The position numbers were made by a program, and so were the translations under genes. From positions 1-32,588 of the forward strand of contig JAITSM010000216.1 of the NCBI GenBank assembly GCA_031287815.1: a stretch of 32,588 nucleotides of DNA, written 5' to 3'. Below the pieces are notes generated by a model that saw nothing but the letters and a program-made list of their open reading frames with translations, did not search any database and was not told the DNA's origin. Positions 3,609 to 22,357 of the stretch are shown here, piece after piece; within the stretch, counting starts at the first letter, position 1, and each line of letters begins with the position of its first letter. This DNA comes from Prevotellaceae bacterium (GTDB taxonomy: Bacteria > Bacteroidota > Bacteroidia > Bacteroidales > UBA932).

Positions 3609-3639
3609 TTTGCAAATAAAAAATAAAGTAATATATTTG
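3609..3639 (+). promoter_or_regulatory. Bacteroidetes primary-sigma promoter upstream of structured RNA copy 1
   Basis: TTTG (3609-3612), 19-nt spacer, TATATTTG (3632-3639), matching the TTTG-N19-TAnnTTTG consensus. Confidence 0.75.
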
Positions 3640-3644
3640 CAGCG

Positions 3645-3915
3645 TTAATTATGCTCTTTACATATTGGCGTTTTATTTTTTAACGGAAATCTTCACAATT
3701 TCTAATTGTCCTATAAATAAAGTAAGTCACTTTTTATTTTATGAACGTGAACTTATTGGTTATAGGACAGGGTAGTGAAGAACCTCCGTTAAAAATCAAT
3801 TTAGTTCGCGTTTCGTATTTATATGGAATAACGTCAAAACAGTGAAAATGGCAGCGAATAAAAAATCGTAGCGAGGGGTTGTTTTTATGAAAAAGTTTGT
3901 GTTTGAAAACAACCC
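3645..3915 (+). ncRNA. Structured RNA copy 1 (leader or independent RNA) upstream of the FISUMP protein
   Basis: Nested helices AACGG(3682-3686)/CCGTT(3786-3790), CTTCAC(3691-3696)/GTGAAG(3775-3780), TGTCCTATAA(3707-3716)/TTATAGGACA(3760-3769), with internal loops AAAT/AACCT and AATTTCTAAT/GGGTA. 3' hairpin GGGTTGTTTT(3876-3885)/AAAACAACCC(3906-3915). Same fold with covarying helices in copy 2 (14571-14888, -). Confidence 0.8.
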
Positions 3916-4000
3916 TGAAGCTGCGAAAAGAACGTGGACTTATAGAACATAGACAATAGACAAAAAAAATTAAATATTAACTTTTTAAAAATATATTTTT

Positions 4001-5272
4001 ATGAAAACAAAACTTTTCTTTCTTCTCGCAATGCTTATAGGCGTTGCAGCAAGCGCCACCGTAACCGTAACGCCGCTTTCTACGGATTATTCCACCAACA
4101 AAGTAACCTTTAAAGTGGAATGGACGAACACCCCCTCTGCGCCCTACAATAATCGTGTGTGGGTGTGGATAGATTTCTGCCCGGTAACAGGCACAACGTC
4201 GGCAAACTCTTTTTCTACCGCCACCATTTCCAACCCTGCCAAAACAGGCGGAAACGGTACGGTTACTAACGCCACTGAGCGCGGCTTTTTTATTGAATAT
4301 GCCGCTGCCAATGCAGGAACAACTGTTACCGCCACATTAAGCAATGCAAGCGGCAAGTTCAATTGGTGCGCCTACGGCAGCGACTACCCGCCGAATGTAA
4401 CGTTGGAAAAGGGGACTTATACCTTTAAAGGTACAACCGATTTTATAGTAAGCAATCCCGCACAGACTGTAACTACTGCGACCATACCGCAAGCAAGTTT
4501 AACCGTTACTGCATCCAGTACATTTACGGATGCTACCGGTTGTCCCGGCATAGGAAGCCTTTATTGCCCCTACACAGGCAGCGATTTATATATGGATGCT
4601 ACGCATCTTTGCCGGCAACGCCCAAGCGGCGCACAGAATTGGGAAGCATGGATAAAAGACACGCGGGATAATGAACTGTATAGAATTGTGAAAATGCCCG
4701 ACAATAAATGGTGGTTGGCACAGAATGTAAAATTGGCGAGCTATAATGGAAAGACCGCCGGTACGACTAGTTCCAACTGTGCAAAGGATGAGTGTGGAAG
4801 AATATATTCGCGCGATGAGACCATCGGTGCTTGGGGTGGCTCAAATGGGTTTGGGGCAAACATTCAGGGTATTTGCCCAAATGGATGGCTTTTGCCGAGT
4901 TATACCGAATTCTTAAACATGCTGGTGTCACTCGTAAATGGTGCGAGTTACACTTATTACACGGGTAACCCCGGGTGCATTGGTTATAGGTTAAGCTCAG
5001 GGGTTTCAAGAATAGTCGCTGCTAAAGAAAACGTTTGCCAAACAAGCAATGATGTGTACGGGTGGGCTTCCGAAAAAACAATCTATGAAAACACCACCCT
5101 CGATGCTGAAGGCTGGATGTTGTCGCAAACCGCCGACCAGCAATACTGGGTCGTGCGGAAGATGACGCATATGTGTGTTGCCGGTGATGCTTGCGATTAT
5201 GTCAGTGTTGCACGAGCGCTTTACCCACAGAACGCCATGAACACTACAGTGCGTTGTATTCGCACTTTATAG
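4001..5272 (+). CDS. Secreted protein: conserved N-terminal domain plus C-terminal FISUMP (Fibrobacter succinogenes major paralogous) type domain
   Basis: Signal peptide MKTKLFFLLAMLIGVAASA. C-terminal GICPNGWLLPSYTEF...GWMLSQTADQQYWVVRKM...TTVRCIRTL is FISUMP-like. N-terminal ~175 aa is paralogous to the 13498-14403 product. Confidence 0.8.
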   Translation: MKTKLFFLLAMLIGVAASATVTVTPLSTDYSTNKVTFKVEWTNTPSAPYNNRVWVWIDFCPVTGTTSANSFSTATISNPAKTGGNGTVTNATERGFFIEYAAANAGTTVTATLSNASGKFNWCAYGSDYPPNVTLEKGTYTFKGTTDFIVSNPAQTVTTATIPQASLTVTASSTFTDATGCPGIGSLYCPYTGSDLYMDATHLCRQRPSGAQNWEAWIKDTRDNELYRIVKMPDNKWWLAQNVKLASYNGKTAGTTSSNCAKDECGRIYSRDETIGAWGGSNGFGANIQGICPNGWLLPSYTEFLNMLVSLVNGASYTYYTGNPGCIGYRLSSGVSRIVAAKENVCQTSNDVYGWASEKTIYENTTLDAEGWMLSQTADQQYWVVRKMTHMCVAGDACDYVSVARALYPQNAMNTTVRCIRTL

Positions 5273-12795: not shown

Positions 12796-12971
12796 TGGAG
12801 AATGGAAAATGGAGAATGCCTTGTTTAATGGAGAACGACGAGTGCGTCTGTTCGCTGATGTCCACCGGGGCGGTATCGAGAATTGCCCAGCGGATTTCTG
12901 CGCCGTGCTGCCCGGCGGGCTTGGCCGTTGATCCTCCTTTTTTAAGTTAATATATTCAGTTACCATTGATT

Positions 12972-13180
12972 GGGGGGCTCCCCGGCTTCGTTCGGGGGGC
13001 TCCCCGGCTCGTTCGGGGGGCTCCCCCGGCTCGTTCGGGGGGCTTCCCCGGCCCTCCGGGGGGCTCCCCAGACCGTCGGGGGGCTCCCCGGACCTCCGGG
13101 GGACTCCCCAGACCCGCTCGGGGGGCTCCCCCGGACCTCCGGGGGGCTCCCCGGCGCGTCGGGGGGGCTCCCCGGTCCGA
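12972..13180. repeat. GC-rich tandem array, about 10 units of 20-22 bp, core GGGGGGCTCCCC
   Basis: Units such as ggggggctccccggcttcgttc / ggggggctccccggctcgttc / ggggggcttccccggccctcc / ggggggctccccggacctcc. Unit length varies 20-22, so no reading frame is maintained. Confidence 0.9.
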
Positions 13181-13272
13181 TGGGAAACAGCCCCCCTTCC
13201 GCCTCAGGGCGGTATAAACTGTTCAAATTTTAATCCCTTTTTATTATTCATTTTTCTATTAGTCGTTAGTTA

Positions 13273-13497: not shown

Positions 13498-14403
13498 TTA
13501 ATTACAGCAAAAGCAGTAAGCGGCGTTTGTAACATCGAAATCATAGTATATGTAGTTAGCCGCAGTGCAATCGCTTTGGCACAGGTAAGCGCTCCACGCA
13601 GTTATTTGTTTGCAGTCTTTGCTCAACGAGCAGCCCCAGCATTTGCTGTTACGGGCTGCCGGGCAGCCGTACAGGCAGGATGATATCGTGGTCTCGGCTG
13701 CTCGCGGGTCGATCACTTCGCCGCACTGGTTGCGCAATTGTACATATCCGGTGTTGCATGCTCCGGTGCACGCGCCGTCATTTGTAGTATAAGTTGTATC
13801 CTTTTTGCATGTCCCGCTGCAATTGGTGGTTCCGGGCACGCAGCAATCAATTACCCCCGATGATTCGCCGTCGTTGCCGCAGGGGGCGCCGGGGCAGCCG
13901 GTGGCGTCGGTGAGTGCGGTAATTTCTTCGCCGGAATAGGTATCGGCGTTTACCGTTGCCGTGCCATCGGCGGTGGTAATAATAAAGGGTGGCGTGCCTC
14001 TCAGGTCGTAGCCACCGGAGGCGTTGTGTATCGCATTGGGCGGGAAGTTGCTGCCGTAGGCGCACCAGTTGAATTTGCCGGTGGCGTTGCTTAGCGTGGC
14101 GGTAACGGTCGAGGGGTTGGTTGTTACATAAAAGCCGCGCGTATTGCCGGCAACGGTCAGTATGCTGCCGGCGGTAGCGGTAGCCCCGCTGATAACGGCT
14201 TTGGCGAATGTTCCCGGAGCGGTTCCCGGCGCCGGGCACAAATCTACAAACACCCATACGCGGTTGTTGGCGGCCGTTCCCGACCATGCGACGCGGAAAG
14301 TTACTGTTGATTTGTCATAATCTGCGCTGATAGGCGTAACGATAGCTTGCGCGAAGGCTGCACAGCCGCCCAGCAAGGCAAAAAAGAAAAGAAAGATTTT
14401 CAT
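13498..14403 (-). CDS. Secreted protein with the same N-terminal domain as the 4001-5272 product and a divergent Cys-rich C-terminus
   Basis: MKIFLFFFALLGGCAAFAQ signal peptide; VTPISADYDKSTVTFRVAWSGTAANNRVWVFVDLCP...TVTATLSNATGKFNWCAYGSNFPPN...LTDATGCPG parallels the first protein; then many Cys residues to ...AAYCFCCN. Confidence 0.75.
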   Translation of the reverse strand: MKIFLFFFALLGGCAAFAQAIVTPISADYDKSTVTFRVAWSGTAANNRVWVFVDLCPAPGTAPGTFAKAVISGATATAGSILTVAGNTRGFYVTTNPSTVTATLSNATGKFNWCAYGSNFPPNAIHNASGGYDLRGTPPFIITTADGTATVNADTYSGEEITALTDATGCPGAPCGNDGESSGVIDCCVPGTTNCSGTCKKDTTYTTNDGACTGACNTGYVQLRNQCGEVIDPRAAETTISSCLYGCPAARNSKCWGCSLSKDCKQITAWSAYLCQSDCTAANYIYYDFDVTNAAYCFCCN

Positions 14404-14570: not shown

Positions 14571-14888
14571 GGGATTGTTTTGCACTTAATTTTAGTTTCA
14601 AACACAAACACTTTCTCCAAAACAATCCCCCTTTGCCGCAAGCTCTTTTGCATATTGGCAACTTTTATTCGGTTAGTCTGTTTCGGAAATTTCTCTTTTC
14701 AGAGAGGTTTGGGGATAAATGCGAAACGTGAACTTTAATTTACTCTATTGAGGTTCTGGAATACCTTGTTCGTGTAAGTAAAAATTCACGTTTCATCGTG
14801 TATATTTACTTTTATTCACGAACAATTAAAATTTTCCAGATTTCAATAGAGAATAAAAGCGGTCAAAATGAAAAAGAGCATAATGTTG
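14571..14888 (-). ncRNA. Structured RNA copy 2 upstream of the second paralog
   Basis: Minus strand: CTCTATTG(14851-14844)/CAATAGAG(14750-14743), CTGGAA(14839-14834)/TTCCAG(14761-14756), TGTTCGTG(14824-14817)/CACGAACA(14774-14767), internal loops AAAT/AACCT and AATTTTAAT/AGGTA. 3' hairpin GGGATTGTTTT(14629-14619)/AAAACAATCCC(14581-14571). Begins with ATGCTCTTT at the same distance from its promoter as copy 1. Confidence 0.8.
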
Positions 14889-14892
14889 GGTG

Positions 14893-14923
14893 CAAAGGTA
14901 GAAAGAATTTTGGAAATAGCAAA
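14893..14923 (-). promoter_or_regulatory. Bacteroidetes primary-sigma promoter upstream of structured RNA copy 2
   Basis: Minus strand TTTG (14923-14920), 19-nt spacer, TACCTTTG (14900-14893). Spacer and the 11-nt distance to ATGCTCTTT match copy 1. Confidence 0.75.
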
Positions 14924-16284: not shown

Positions 16285-16555
16285 TAGGGGCGGATCTTTA
16301 CTTTGTTCCAGACGGCGCCGAACAATCCAAAGCGTATGAAAAATGTATTATGGACGCACAGGGTTAACTACCTGCGGGCGCATTAAACCTATGCAAAAAA
16401 ATGCAGTCAAAGCAGCTGTATTTCTTAGCTATATTGACGTATGGGGCAGGGATGAAATAATTTTTTTTTTGTAAAAACAGTATTTTTTTTGTACAATTCG
16501 GTTTTATTTAGTTACTTTGCAAAATTACTTTATTTAGAAATTGGGGATAGAGTGC

Positions 16556-17494
16556 ATGATGATGTGGTACAAAATACTTCCGGCAATAGCCTTCATGGGG
16601 CTTGCCGGTGAAGTTTCAGCACAACAAGACGCCCAATTTAATTTATGGTTTATGAACCCGACCTTTATCAATCCGGGACATGCAGGGAATACGCAGGAAG
16701 AAATGTTCTGCGCCTCCGGCTACAACAGGCTGGAGTTACGGGGCTTTGATGAAGCCCCCGTTTCTACGGTGCTAAACGTGCATGGGCCGGTGAATATATT
16801 TGGCGTGCGTAGCGGTATCAGCGTTACGCTACAGAACGAGCTGGCAGGTTTCCTGCGCGCTCCGGGATTAAATTTGGGCTATGCCTACCGCCATTCGCTG
16901 GGCGCGGGGGAGATAGGAATAGGGGCGTCGCTGGGGTTTATCAGCAGCTGGTATGCTTCGAACACCTGGAATCTGCCCGACGGCAGCGCCGACCCGGTGG
17001 CGCCGAGCCAGGAAAATGCAGGGATAGCTTTCGATTTGGGCGCAGGCGCCTATTATTCCGATTCCCGCTGGGTTGGCGGATTGTCGTTCACGCACCTTAC
17101 CAGCCCGAAGTTAGGCGTCGACAACAATGCGCGGTACCGCCCCACGCTGTATGCTATGGGCGGATATACCTTTTTTGCGGACAGCGTGACGTGGCTGATA
17201 ACGCCCATGCTGTGGATTGTGTCCGACTTTGCGCAAGCCAGCTATCACGCAGCTTGCCATGCGATGTATAAAAAAAAATACTGGGGGGGTATCAACTACC
17301 GTTGGGGGCAGGCGATTATCGCGATGGCGGGAATGGAGGTTTTCGACGGGTTGAATATCGCCTATGCTTACGAGTACGCCACTTCCCGGCTAAGCCGCTT
17401 CAGCAGGGGGACGCATGAATTGATGTTAAGCTATTCGTTCGCAGTAAAAGCAGTGCGGGGAACGCAGCGGTATAAAAGTATAAGATATTTGTAA
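16556..17494 (+). CDS. PorP/SprF family type IX secretion system outer-membrane protein
   Basis: AQQDAQFNLWFMNPTFINPGHAGNTQEEMFCASGYNR and beta-barrel C-terminus; followed by gldKLMN. ATG at 16556 preferred over the TTG at 16541. Confidence 0.9.
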   Translation: MMMWYKILPAIAFMGLAGEVSAQQDAQFNLWFMNPTFINPGHAGNTQEEMFCASGYNRLELRGFDEAPVSTVLNVHGPVNIFGVRSGISVTLQNELAGFLRAPGLNLGYAYRHSLGAGEIGIGASLGFISSWYASNTWNLPDGSADPVAPSQENAGIAFDLGAGAYYSDSRWVGGLSFTHLTSPKLGVDNNARYRPTLYAMGGYTFFADSVTWLITPMLWIVSDFAQASYHAACHAMYKKKYWGGINYRWGQAIIAMAGMEVFDGLNIAYAYEYATSRLSRFSRGTHELMLSYSFAVKAVRGTQRYKSIRYL

Positions 17495-17514
17495 AATTAA
17501 AAATACATTAAAAT

Positions 17515-18858
17515 ATGAATAAGTCGCTCTACTTGCTTGTGGTTATTGTATTATCCTTCTGCCTCTATGGGTGTATGAAGACTAATTATGGCTACACAGG
17601 CGAATTGTCGCGTGGAACAAAGGGAAAAACCATCACCTCTTCGGAATTGCCACCCAATGGAATGGTATATGTCCCTTCCGGGCACGTGGTGATCGGAAAT
17701 AACGACCAGGACATTTTGTGGGCAATGAATGCTATTCCCCGTACTATCACGATCAACGCTTTTTGGATGGATCAAACGGAAATTACCAATTTTGAGTACC
17801 GGCAGTTTACAAGCTATGTACGGGATTCTATCATCCGCTCGCTGATAGGCGCAGAAGACGAAAATTTCTTTTTGCCGGAAGACGAAGACGAGGATTATAG
17901 CGAGGACAGTAGACGGCCGCTGGACTGGCGGGCGCGCATCAATCGTAAAGACGCTACGCACCGTACGCTTCTCCGGGAGATAAATTACTCCGGCGACGAA
18001 GCTATTTTCAACCGGGCGGAAATTGACGTCCGGAAATTGATTTATGAATATTCGTGGATAGACTACCAGCAGGCCGCTAATGCGCACTATGACGCGGAAC
18101 AGAAAAAATATCTCGGTTTTATCATCAACGCGCAGGGAGAACGCGAAGAAATACGCGACCGCCGGTCATTTATTATGAAAGAATCGGTTTACGTGTATCC
18201 CGACACGTTGTGCTGGATACGCGATTTTGCTTTCTCCTACAACGAGCCTTTTGTGACCAGTTATTTTTCCCACATATCTTATAATGATTACCCGGTAGTA
18301 GGCGTTTCGTGGAAACAGGCTACGGCGTTTTGCTGGTGGCGGACGAACATGATTTATTCCAGCCTGGAAGGGAATTATCCCAACCCTTACCGGTTGCCGA
18401 ATGAAGCGGAATGGGAATATGCAGCGCGCGGCGGCTTGGAAAGCGAGCTGTATCCCTGGGGCGGCCCGTATACGACCAACAAAGAAGGCTGCTATTTGGC
18501 GAATTTCAAACCGCAACGCGGGAAATATGAGCTGGACGGCGGCGTTTATACCATGCCGGTGGGTTCTTACGAGCCGAACGATTACGGGCTGTACGACATG
18601 GCCGGCAACGTGTCCGAATGGACGTCCAATACATTCGATGAAAACGCCTATAGCCAGTACCACGATTTGGAGCCGAATTATACCACCAATCCCAGGGGCT
18701 CCGACGCAAGCGTGTTTAAACGCAAAGTAGTGCGCGGCGGCTCGTGGAAAGACATTTCGTTTTTCCTGCAATGCGGCACGCGGATGTATGAATACCAGGA
18801 TTCAACCAAGTCCTATATTGGATTCCGTTGCGTACGCTCCTATATGGGAACCCGTTAA
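17515..18858 (+). CDS. gldK: Type IX secretion / gliding motility lipoprotein GldK (PorK), SUMF1 fold
   Basis: LPPNGMVYVPSGHVVIGNNDQD, AFWMDQTEITNFEYRQF, YPVVGVSWKQATAFCWWRTN, YDMAGNVSEWTSN, VVRGGSWKD...YIGFRCVRS; syntenic with gldLMN. Confidence 0.95.
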   Translation: MNKSLYLLVVIVLSFCLYGCMKTNYGYTGELSRGTKGKTITSSELPPNGMVYVPSGHVVIGNNDQDILWAMNAIPRTITINAFWMDQTEITNFEYRQFTSYVRDSIIRSLIGAEDENFFLPEDEDEDYSEDSRRPLDWRARINRKDATHRTLLREINYSGDEAIFNRAEIDVRKLIYEYSWIDYQQAANAHYDAEQKKYLGFIINAQGEREEIRDRRSFIMKESVYVYPDTLCWIRDFAFSYNEPFVTSYFSHISYNDYPVVGVSWKQATAFCWWRTNMIYSSLEGNYPNPYRLPNEAEWEYAARGGLESELYPWGGPYTTNKEGCYLANFKPQRGKYELDGGVYTMPVGSYEPNDYGLYDMAGNVSEWTSNTFDENAYSQYHDLEPNYTTNPRGSDASVFKRKVVRGGSWKDISFFLQCGTRMYEYQDSTKSYIGFRCVRSYMGTR

Positions 18859-18890
18859 AAAATTAAAAACAACAACTAAAAATACTAATT

Positions 18891-19847
18891 ATGGCATTCT
18901 TTCAATTCGTAGAAAAAAAAGGCTGGAAGACATTTATGGCCAAAATGTATGGCTGGGGAGCGTCTTTGGTTATTATCGGCGCATTGTTTAAACTGCAACA
19001 CTGGCCAATGGCAGGATATATGCTTACTATCGGTATGAGCATTGAGTGTATCATTTTCTTTTTCTCGGCATTTGAGCCGCTTCCGCTCGACTATCACTGG
19101 GATGCGGTATTTCCTGAATTGGGAGACAGGCATGGCGTGGCAGATAAAGCGGCGCCAAGCGTGCGGAAAAGACAAGGTTTGGATATAGATTCCGACTCGG
19201 CGGAAAACCTGAAAACGAATGTAGAGCGTTTTAACCAATCGGTAAGCAGCCTCGGCGCATTAGCTACCGTAGCCGACGCTTCCAACCGTTTTGTCGGCGG
19301 GTTGCAGCAGGCGGCGGGCAATATGACAATACTCAACCAGACCGCCCAGACGTTTGCTTCCGCTTACAACGAAACAGCGCAAACCATTATGGCCGGCGGG
19401 CAACAGGCGAATGTCAACTTAGCCACCTTGAACCAGACCACGCAAGCCTTTGCCAATGCATACAACGAAGCGGCGAAAACCATTGCGTCGGGCGGGCAAC
19501 AGGCTTCCGCTAATTTAACGGCATTGAGCCAAACGACACAAGCCTTCGCCTCCGCTTACAACGAAACAGCAAAAACCATTACGGCCGGCGGGCAACAGGC
19601 AAACGCTAATTTGGCGGCACTAAACAAAAATTTGCAAGCCGTGAATACCTCCTACGAATTATACATGCAAGAACATAAAGGATATGTTGAGCATAACCAA
19701 AAACTACTGACGGTAATGGACAACTCGGCAAAACAATCACAGTACTTCGACCGGCAAATGATTGAACTGAATAAACTGATTGCCGAACTTAATACGGTAT
19801 ATACATCGGTAGTCCATACGGTAAATACGACTTTGAAAAAACGATAG
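18891..19847 (+). CDS. gldL: Type IX secretion motor protein GldL (PorL)
   Basis: MAFFQFVEKKGWKTFMAKMYGWGASLVIIGALFKLQHWPMAGYMLTIGMSIECIIFFFSAFEP; between gldK and gldM. Confidence 0.95.
   Translation: MAFFQFVEKKGWKTFMAKMYGWGASLVIIGALFKLQHWPMAGYMLTIGMSIECIIFFFSAFEPLPLDYHWDAVFPELGDRHGVADKAAPSVRKRQGLDIDSDSAENLKTNVERFNQSVSSLGALATVADASNRFVGGLQQAAGNMTILNQTAQTFASAYNETAQTIMAGGQQANVNLATLNQTTQAFANAYNEAAKTIASGGQQASANLTALSQTTQAFASAYNETAKTITAGGQQANANLAALNKNLQAVNTSYELYMQEHKGYVEHNQKLLTVMDNSAKQSQYFDRQMIELNKLIAELNTVYTSVVHTVNTTLKKR
19332..19619 (+). repeat. Three in-frame 96-bp (32-aa) tandem repeats inside gldL
   Basis: LNQTAQTFASAYNETAQTIMAGGQQANVNLAT / LNQTTQAFANAYNEAAKTIASGGQQASANLTA / LSQTTQAFASAYNETAKTITAGGQQANANLAA. 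Confidence 0.9.
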
Positions 19848-19903
19848 CAGGTACCATGATGGAATGTACCAAAATATTCACAAGCTACTTAAATTAAAAA
19901 ATT

Positions 19904-21448
19904 ATGGCAGGCGGCAAACTCACTCCTCGTCAAAAAATGATCAACATGATGTACTTGGTGCTAACGGCTATGTTAGCGCTGAATGTATCTGTTGAAGTAT
20001 TGGACGCATTTGTGCTTATCAACAAAAGCCTCAGGCAAAGTATTGAGACCACCCGCATAAAAAATAAAGCCGAGTTGTCTGACTTTGCGCGAGCAGCGGC
20101 AGAGAATCCCGAAAAAGTAGGCCCGTGGCAAGCCAAAGCCGAAGAAGTGCACGCAATGGCTGAAGCATTATATACCTATATTCAACAGCTGAAAGTACGA
20201 ATCGTAAAAGCCAGCGACGGGGAAGATGCAAAAGCAATAGAAGCGGACGGGCTCACTTTTGATTCGTGGGCTATCGAAGGGAAAGACAATACCGACGTAG
20301 CGTCGCGGATTTTGCTCGGCGACGGCAACGGCGAGGCTTATACCATCCGCAAAAAAATTATCGACTATAAAGAATTCTTGCTAGGAATGGCTACCGACAA
20401 TCCGCTGGTAACCGAATCTATTCACAATTTATTGCAAACCGACAATCCGCCGGAGATGTCCGACGGCATGCGCCACACTTGGGAAACCCAATTTGAAAGC
20501 ATTCCGCTGATTTCGGCAGTTTCGTTGCTGTCGAAATTCCAACTTGACATTCTCAACTGCGAAAGCGAAATGCTGAATCATTTGTCCGGTCAAATTGATG
20601 CGTCCGATTTTAAATTTTCAAATATCGACGTAGCGATTATTCCTACTTCCAATTATGTGTTGAAAGGCACGGAATATTCCGCCGAGATATTTTTGGCCGC
20701 TTATGACCCGACGGCGCGCCCGACTTTGCAAATAGGCGGGAGAACATATCAAGCCAACCCGACGGGAAAAATTACTTACAAATATCCGGCGCAAACAGTA
20801 GGGCCAGTGAATTTGAAAGGCAATATTGAATTTAACGGCCCTAGTGGAAAAACGACGCGCCCGGTAGCTATCCAGTTCCAGGTGGCGGAGCCCAACGTTG
20901 TTGTTTCGCCGACCAAAATGAATGTGGTGTATCGCGGCATAGAAAACCCTATCAGTATTTCATTGTCCGGCGTGCCGCCGGAAAGATTAATGCCTACCGT
21001 AACCAACGGTACCATGACGCGTGGCACAAACGAGTTTATCCTTGTTCCGGGTAACGGCAATATCTGCACGGTTTCCGTAGCATTCGACGGAAAGGATATG
21101 GGCGGCATGTCGTTTCGCGTAAAAAACCTGCCTATTCCCACGCCGCGCCTGGAAGGCATCGCGACAAAAAACGCGACAAAAGGCGACTTGATGGCTTCCC
21201 AGGGAATATTTGCCGAAATGAAAGATTTTGATTTCGATTTAAAATACCGGGTTACCTCATTCACGGTATCCGCCACCATTCAAGGTTATTTGGAAGAAAA
21301 AACATCCAACTCGCAATTGTTTACCGAAGAACAAAAACAATTGTTCAACCGGGTACGTTCCGGACAGCTCGTTGCGTTTACGAATATAATCGCTCGAGGC
21401 CCTAATGGCGATGTAGAGCTGCCGGACCTTACCGTAAAAGTTAGATAA
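19904..21448 (+). CDS. gldM: Type IX secretion protein GldM (PorM)
   Basis: MAGGKLTPRQKMINMMYLVLTAMLALNVSVEVLDAFVLINKSLRQS; 514 aa; synteny. Confidence 0.96.
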   Translation: MAGGKLTPRQKMINMMYLVLTAMLALNVSVEVLDAFVLINKSLRQSIETTRIKNKAELSDFARAAAENPEKVGPWQAKAEEVHAMAEALYTYIQQLKVRIVKASDGEDAKAIEADGLTFDSWAIEGKDNTDVASRILLGDGNGEAYTIRKKIIDYKEFLLGMATDNPLVTESIHNLLQTDNPPEMSDGMRHTWETQFESIPLISAVSLLSKFQLDILNCESEMLNHLSGQIDASDFKFSNIDVAIIPTSNYVLKGTEYSAEIFLAAYDPTARPTLQIGGRTYQANPTGKITYKYPAQTVGPVNLKGNIEFNGPSGKTTRPVAIQFQVAEPNVVVSPTKMNVVYRGIENPISISLSGVPPERLMPTVTNGTMTRGTNEFILVPGNGNICTVSVAFDGKDMGGMSFRVKNLPIPTPRLEGIATKNATKGDLMASQGIFAEMKDFDFDLKYRVTSFTVSATIQGYLEEKTSNSQLFTEEQKQLFNRVRSGQLVAFTNIIARGPNGDVELPDLTVKVR

Positions 21449-21466
21449 AAATTATTTATGTGCAAT

Positions 21467-22357
21467 ATGAAACATTTTATTACATTTTCGTTATTTAGCA
21501 TTTTCCTGCTTGCCGGCAGTGGCGCAGTAGCCCAGCAACAGTTGCAACAAAAGCACAGTTTAGTGATGGACGGCGCATTTCACCGGGATATAATTCAGGA
21601 AAAAGAGCCTTTCCCCTACACTCCCATTCGCGAAGCCGATGTTGTGTGGGCGTCGAAAATATGGCGTATTATCGACCTGCGGGAAAAAATCAATTATCCG
21701 TTATACTATCCGACCGAAGTAATGCAAGGCCGCAAGAGTTTAGTGCAAGCATTGGTACAAGCCATTCAAGCCGGCAAAATAACGGCCTATGATACCGACT
21801 CCGACGAATTTACTACCGTATTGTCGCCTCAATCGCTTGTCTCACGCTTTAATGCCGCCGACCGCAAACAGGTAAGGCAAAAAATGGACGGCACAGGCGA
21901 TACTACCGTGACCATTCGCGGGCAAATCAACTGGAGCGAAGTGCAGGAACTGCTGATAAAGGAAGAATGGTTTTTCGATACCCGCTATTCGCAAATGTTT
22001 GTAAGGATTATTGGCATTTGCCCTATCCGCGTATATCACCGCCAACTGCGCACGGCAGACGGCGAAGATGAAGACGGCGAAAAAGTAAAAGCACGTTTAT
22101 TCTGGGTATATTACCCCGAAATACGTAAAACGCTGGCGAACACTCTTTGCTTTACCGGCGAAAACGAAATTTCCCAAATGTCGTTCGACGACTTGTTCCT
22201 CAAGCGTTATTTCAATTCCTATATCGTAGCGGAATCCAATAATCAAAATAACCGCCTGATAAGTTCTTACACCCGCAACGATTTTGAGATGATGCTGGAA
22301 TCGGAAAACATCAAAACAGAATTATTCAACAAAGAGCAGGATTTTTGGGAATATTAA
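21467..22357 (+). CDS. gldN: Type IX secretion protein GldN (PorN)
   Basis: DIIQEKEPFPYTPIREADVVWASKIWRIIDLREKINYPLYYPTE; follows gldM. Start at 21467 (MKHFITFSLF) or 21458. Confidence 0.93.
   Translation: MKHFITFSLFSIFLLAGSGAVAQQQLQQKHSLVMDGAFHRDIIQEKEPFPYTPIREADVVWASKIWRIIDLREKINYPLYYPTEVMQGRKSLVQALVQAIQAGKITAYDTDSDEFTTVLSPQSLVSRFNAADRKQVRQKMDGTGDTTVTIRGQINWSEVQELLIKEEWFFDTRYSQMFVRIIGICPIRVYHRQLRTADGEDEDGEKVKARLFWVYYPEIRKTLANTLCFTGENEISQMSFDDLFLKRYFNSYIVAESNNQNNRLISSYTRNDFEMMLESENIKTELFNKEQDFWEY

Follow-up and report, generated by a model that had tools for sequence, protein, structure and literature searches.

A high-copy structured RNA with self-matched, hypervariable stems upstream of secreted-protein genes in a termite-gut Bacteroidales genome: a candidate cis-acting leader

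The window, the whole 32,588-nt contig JAITSM010000216.1, belongs to a 2.31 Mb draft Bacteroidales genome (GCA_031287815.1; fragmented metagenome assembly, 94.8% complete) from a termite-gut bacterium. It carries two copies of a structured RNA element, each with a promoter of its own and each upstream of a gene for a secreted protein; the two proteins are paralogous. The element considered here is copy 2, on the minus strand, for which an original prediction had listed three complementary arm pairs. All three are present with the predicted sequences. The parts of copy 2, followed by those of copy 1, are:

14893..14923, minus strand: promoter of copy 2, Bacteroidota-type, with TTTG at 14923..14920, 19 nt, and TACCTTTG at 14900..14893
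14642..14881, minus strand: core of the copy 2 RNA, ATGCTCTTT to AAAAGAGC
14844..14851, minus strand: 5' arm of helix P1, CTCTATTG, hypervariable between copies
14834..14839, minus strand: 5' strand of helix P2, CTGGAA, in the loop of hairpin A
14817..14824, minus strand: 5' arm of helix P3, TGTTCGTG, hypervariable
14785..14793, minus strand: 5' strand of the T-helix (terminator-type helix or pseudoknot), AAACGTGAA
14767..14774, minus strand: 3' arm of P3, CACGAACA, partner of TGTTCGTG
14756..14761, minus strand: 3' strand of P2, TTCCAG, in the loop of hairpin B, stem AGGT/ACCT
14743..14750, minus strand: 3' arm of P1, CAATAGAG, partner of CTCTATTG
14724..14732, minus strand: 3' strand of the T-helix, TTCACGTTT, followed by a U-run in relatives outside the genus and not in the window copy
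14571..14629, minus strand: second conserved hairpin module, GGGATTGTTTTG...CAAAACAATCCC, found in a subset of copies only (type A)
13498..14403, minus strand: gene downstream of copy 2, a 301-aa secreted protein with the family N-terminal domain
3609..3930, plus strand: copy 1, promoter (3609-3639) and RNA, 89.7 bits
3678-3686 with 3786-3794, plus strand: helix P1 of copy 1
3707-3716 with 3760-3769, plus strand: helix P3 of copy 1
4001..5272, plus strand: gene downstream of copy 1, a paralogous secreted protein of 423 aa that weakly matches Fib_succ_major

The promoter of copy 2 is followed, after 11 nt, by ATGCTCTTT (14881..14873, minus strand), and the same 19/11 spacing recurs in copy 1 (3609-3659), in agreement with the promoter geometry first proposed. 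The termini of the copy 2 core pair with each other (GCTCTTT..CATTTTG with CAATATG..AAAGAGC). From its 5' end the core is composed of the closing strand GCTCTTT..CATTTTG, CTTTTATTC, the P1 arm, hairpin A (GAAA-loop-TTTC; stem GAAAT/ATTTC in most copies, with ATTTT in the window copy) and the P3 arm; then GAATAAAAG, a loop containing AACGTGGA, the 3' P3 arm, hairpin B (GGT-loop-ACC) and the 3' P1 arm; and lastly the strand TCCACGTT, whose pairing partner lies in the loop, a second AATAAAAG and the closing strand of the 3' end. Between the end of the last RNA hairpin (14571) and the start codon (14403) lie 167 nt, where ~168 nt had been estimated. Features beyond that earlier description are the copy number, the pseudoknot-like helix (14793..14785 with 14732..14724), the end-closing helices, the alternative two-hairpin fold and, as the main feature of the element, the hypervariability of its stems with locus-specific self-recognition.

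A 371-nt query of the copy 2 region matches the genome in 40 places (71-86% identity). The promoter layout TTTG-N18/19-TAnnTTTG-N10-12-AYGMTC is present in 36 of 40 copies. A covariance model of the central part of the RNA (R1, built from copies that lack a U-run) finds at least 138 copies at E<=1e-6 among the 150 candidates scored, the E-values being rough as they come from a short calibration. The promoter and copy counts place the observation far beyond chance, and the view that the RNA is structured, has a promoter of its own and is conserved as a unit except for the spacer is upheld. The N-terminal domain of the downstream secreted family is matched by at least 150 genes of the genome. 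A family gene lies on the same strand, no more than 1300 nt downstream, for at least 107 of the 138 copies (median 197 nt), versus 2 copies with such a gene upstream on the same strand and 0 with one on the opposite strand. Several of the other copies are at contig ends, and among copies with enough downstream sequence direct inspection places a family gene behind 32 of 34 entries, which correspond to 31 of 33 distinct loci. The preference for this secreted-protein family, predicted at the outset, is therefore borne out genome-wide. The proteins start in a signal-peptide-like manner, and the Pfam matches among those scanned are weak ones to Fib_succ_major or Ig_7 only.

Within many of the family genes (L066, L061, L058, L060) the signal-peptide region contains a GC-rich repeat, CCCCCTTTGGGGG / CCCTTCGGGGGATTTAGGGGGCTT, translated as NSPFGGFRGLL...FPLWGLGG. 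Promoter-RNA units also occur in tandem, e.g. at L108 59-793 (G001:C63) and L117 1501-1927 (G007:C215). In these arrays the sequence past ATGAAAAAA(A)TTATT enters the next promoter directly, as if the start of a gene had been fused to the next unit.

The helices P1 (8-9 bp in nearly all copies), P2 (6 bp, between the two hairpin loops) and P3 (7-10 bp) are contiguous and complementary in all 38 aligned copies. Their sequences differ widely from copy to copy. Counted as words, the 38 copies hold 24 forms of P1, 8 of P2 and 33 of P3, and all 38 triples are unique, a count to be read with the caveat that identical copies may have collapsed in the fragmented assembly and that two loci have an identical 5' part. 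A P1 core is common to 24 pairs of copies and a P3 word to 5 pairs; P1 and P3 together are shared by none. Measured without an alignment, the cognate helices of this genome average 8.05 (P1), 7.03 (P2) and 9.58 bp (P3), versus 2.16, 4.39 and 3.72 bp for arms taken from different copies, a few low cognate values being parsing failures. A set mostly from other genera gives 8.29, 7.15 and 8.25 for cognate arms and 2.16, 3.58 and 2.96 for non-cognate arms. The predicted duplex energy between 5' and 3' halves is -29.3 kcal/mol for cognate and -10.2 kcal/mol for non-cognate combinations, and none of the 38 5' halves has a better partner than its own 3' half.

The scaffold around these stems behaves differently from the stems themselves. 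The contrast is clearest between close relatives among the copies: L006 and L018 differ at 0 of 104 scaffold positions and at 23 of 42 stem positions; for L011 and L017 the figures are 1 of 101 and 21 of 41. Tandem arrays in two sister species likewise have units whose flanks are 81-94% identical and whose stems are largely unrelated. Such a contrast cannot come from ordinary compensatory drift at a single rate. Either gene conversion homogenises the scaffold while sparing the stems, or diversifying selection acts on the stems, or both. Templated hairpin correction, considered as a source of the stem complementarity, is unlikely because the unpaired internal-loop positions beside the stems stay uncorrected.

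Two folds of the core can be grouped from the alignment. Fold A, a rod made of P1-P2-P3-P4, has a covariation of 0.440 versus 0.153 +/- 0.009 after shuffling, a value reached by 0 of 500 shuffles. In fold B two hairpins form apart from each other, together with the T-helix; 96.5% of alignment cells pair accordingly, with a few two-sided changes. Within this genome 97.7% of cells in the T-helix are paired, and 9 copies are changed on both sides at one pair; hairpins A and B are paired in 99% of cells, with occasional two-sided changes, and relatives carry other stem types. Rod helix P4 and the T-helix use the same CGUGGGC strand, P4 being a competing helix of antiterminator type; both folds are conserved. 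As they share strands, the two folds should be mutually exclusive, which suggests a switch.

The RNA is not confined to this genome. Matches occur in 90 of 150 genomes of the Genome Taxonomy Database (GTDB) family at E<=1e-3. A wider model, R2, was built from 67 copies; its alignment, which was fitted to the structure, has a covariation of 0.891 versus 0.211 shuffled. At E<=1e-5 the sampled genomes in which it finds the RNA number 112 of 296 for the order and 37 of 300 for the phylum, single-contig genomes included. Outside the genus the genes behind the RNA encode TonB-dependent SusC-like receptors, an ECF sigma factor, BspA-like repeats, FGE-sulfatase-type and lipoprotein-like proteins, acyltransferases, a LytTR regulator and small helix-turn-helix (HTH)-like proteins. 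Outside the genus-type set, 55 of 58 copies have a U-run (>=5 T) after the 3' strand; these copies were found by R1 and thus by a model of U-run-less members; for the phylum as a whole, part of the U-run evidence was selected by a model that includes the run. The mean length of the T-helix is 9.4 bp, and in 50 of 62 copies at most 1 nt separates the helix from the U-run. The distance from U-run to start codon is often 13-100 nt, and 13-20 nt in several cases.

Among these relatives, the small HTH-like proteins (76-111 aa, HIG.LI..KL.E...) are found in several genera with the RNA 13-35 nt upstream (L141, L143, L144, L147, L161, L164, L167); the one scanned against Pfam has no match. Many relatives (L188, L193, L197, L198, L199, L207) have a GGGACTG-like motif ~15-35 nt past the U-run and before the start codon. 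In one genome of another genus (L134 1318-1461, G086:C179) the RNA stands with a secreted protein of the window-genus type, through either horizontal transfer or a binning error.

A co-oriented gene consistently follows the RNA, and the 13-20 nt gaps in relatives leave little room for another promoter. Taken together, the co-oriented gene, the tight gap and the intrinsic-terminator-like end of relatives point to a cis-acting 5' leader, possibly a bistable attenuator-type switch whose halves recognise only each other. From these sequence features we hold this reading at a little short of an even chance. The suggestion of an RNA whose action does not depend on the gene behind it finds no support in the co-oriented gene downstream, the short gaps and the terminator-like end of relatives. 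Under the leader reading, the 5' half (the P1 and P3 arms around hairpin A and its variable loop) would pair with the 3' half into the long rod, the fold backed by covariation. Alternatively the halves would fold apart and the 3' half would form the GC-rich T-helix, which with the U-run ahead of the gene in relatives has the layout of an intrinsic terminator and would presumably terminate transcription. The rod would sequester one terminator strand, and recognition between halves would then favour read-through, while blocking it would favour termination. With more than 100 leaders per cell, the recognition sequences may have diverged under selection until each leader pairs with itself only, as the calculated orthogonality has it. 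In the window genus, where the U-run has been lost and extra closing helices gained, the output may instead act on mRNA stability or translation.

Several points weigh against a leader of this kind. The case for an attenuator is drawn from layout. The rod is far more stable than the T-helix folds (-58.7 vs -44.2 kcal/mol) and is expected to be in place ahead of the last terminator strand. In prefix folds of one example the 5' hairpin comes first and the rod later. Read-through would then be the default, and termination would need an additional factor. The U-run is absent in the window's own genus, and for certain copies no gene can be recognised immediately downstream. Concerted evolution of the scaffold, with no selection for orthogonality, could also be the source of part of the contrast between stem and scaffold.

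This last point is the core of a neutral explanation, in which the RNA is an ordinary cis-regulatory element, gene conversion homogenises the scaffold, stems drift with compensation, and conversion tracts ending within a stem are purged as they break the pairing. The piecemeal sharing of stem words (P1 core in 24 pairs, P3 in 5) is what nested conversion predicts, and the tandem units with 81-94% identical flanks and the identical stretches shared at contig ends are in keeping with it. It accounts poorly for scaffolds that are the same at all or all but one position beside stems that differ at half (0/104 vs 23/42 in L006/L018; 1/101 vs 21/41 in L011/L017), and for the absence of any pair sharing P1 and P3 jointly among 38 unique triples, identical copies possibly having been lost in assembly; we rate it as rather unlikely. 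Less probable again is an independent trans-acting small RNA gene, with promoter and terminator, acting on other transcripts, its gene neighbour being incidental or co-duplicated. The promoter in 36 of 40 copies, the U-run ends of relatives and the extreme fold stability would suit such a gene. The one-sided placement of the family gene (107 of 138 downstream on the same strand, 2 upstream, 0 on the opposite strand), the 13-20 nt to which the gap between U-run and start codon shrinks, and the diversity of downstream gene types in other genera argue against it, as does the pairing of the variable segments within the RNA, the three ordered words of the window copy being found at no other place in the genome.

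Pairing might also take place between molecules. If arms and loops joined identical leaders only, the mRNAs of one gene would assemble as dimers or clusters; hairpins A and B, with conserved stems and mutually complementary loops of 6-8 nt, are suited to kissing, the pairing is self-specific, and covariation is blind to the difference between intramolecular pairing and pairing of identical molecules. Since the intramolecular rod is very stable and expected first, and the U-run architecture of relatives already suggests a role in cis, such homotypic assembly seems a slim prospect. Slimmest of all is an element acting at the level of DNA, its arms serving as recombination sites or guides (bridge-RNA-like or attC-like) while the RNA or its DNA shuffles surface-protein genes. 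The two-hairpin fold does resemble two guide-displaying loops, the element is tandemly arrayed at very high copy number, and many contigs break inside or just past it. At the contig breaks the overlap equals the assembly k-mer of 119 nt exactly, as plain repeats would give, and the assembly forks were accordingly rejected as evidence of recombination. G-U pairs are tolerated and relatives have a U-run, both RNA features; viral contigs gave no exact motif match; and no IS110-type recombinase (DEDD_Tnp_IS110) was matched in this 94.8% complete genome, four of the control genomes giving a match.

Returning to the leader, a broader and more doubtful extension would make it an RNA address code. More than 100 paralogous leaders would each bear a unique three-word self-complementary address, by which halves, or identical mRNAs, recognise their own kind and thereby govern which members of the surface repertoire are expressed, with insulated or selective expression phylum-wide. 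If the leader model is true, a large, unrecognised class of regulatory RNA of Bacteroidota would precede surface and regulatory genes (SusC-type receptors, ECF sigma factors, BspA-like repeats, FISUMP- and FGE-sulfatase-type proteins), and its locus-specific recognition between halves would amount to a set of RNA switches, orthogonal to one another, assembled by nature. The means by which a single genome regulates a hundred paralogous surface genes whose promoters are nearly identical would then be open to direct test in cultured relatives.

The element can be compared with known systems. With transcription attenuators and riboswitch expression platforms it shares the leader position, mutually exclusive helices, tandem copies and, in relatives outside the genus only, a GC-rich helix with a U-run before the start codon. 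It differs in that no conserved ligand-binding core was identified in this RNA, hypervariable, locus-specific helices decide its fold, copies number up to well over 100 per genome, and the U-run is lost in the genus. In antisense plasmid leaders (CopA/CopT, RNAI/RNAII, pT181 attenuation) complementary hairpin loops recognise each other and can extend to a full duplex, and the loop sequence sets a specificity that diverges and so prevents cross-talk. Loop-loop recognition with diverging specificity is the likeness; here, however, the partners are halves of one RNA, no trans partner was found, and chromosomal gene families take the place of replicons. IS110 bridge RNAs similarly have two stem-loops with a pair of variable segments flanking each hairpin, but the variable segments of the present RNA are complementary to each other and not to separate DNA targets. 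Like the Bacteroidota motifs of Rfam (e.g. Flavo-1) it is a computationally defined structured RNA of the same phylum; unlike them it matches no Rfam 15 family, none reaching the gathering threshold on any copy tested and the best sub-threshold matches falling far under the cut-offs.

Searches of open-access papers for leader RNAs, attenuation or RNA motifs of Bacteroidota turned up no description of this element. Plasmids gave no match with one relative copy as query. No separate genomic locus carries all three of the window copy's words in their sequence, though a cis-encoded antisense transcript may exist. A diversity-generating retroelement or retron RNA was rejected: for 138 or more copies of the RNA the genome has only 3 reverse-transcriptase genes, which is not enough, and these show no general linkage to the RNA. 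Two of these genes (L041 G000:C71, L042 G000:C98) look phage-associated from their sequences, with phage-like surroundings, and possibly belong to diversity-generating retroelements.

Elsewhere in the window, positions 12960-13230 hold an intergenic array of GC-rich GGGGGGCTCCCCGG-type repeats. Positions 16541-22357 have the look of a type IX secretion cluster (PorP/GldK/L/M/N-like), for which the secreted family could be cargo.
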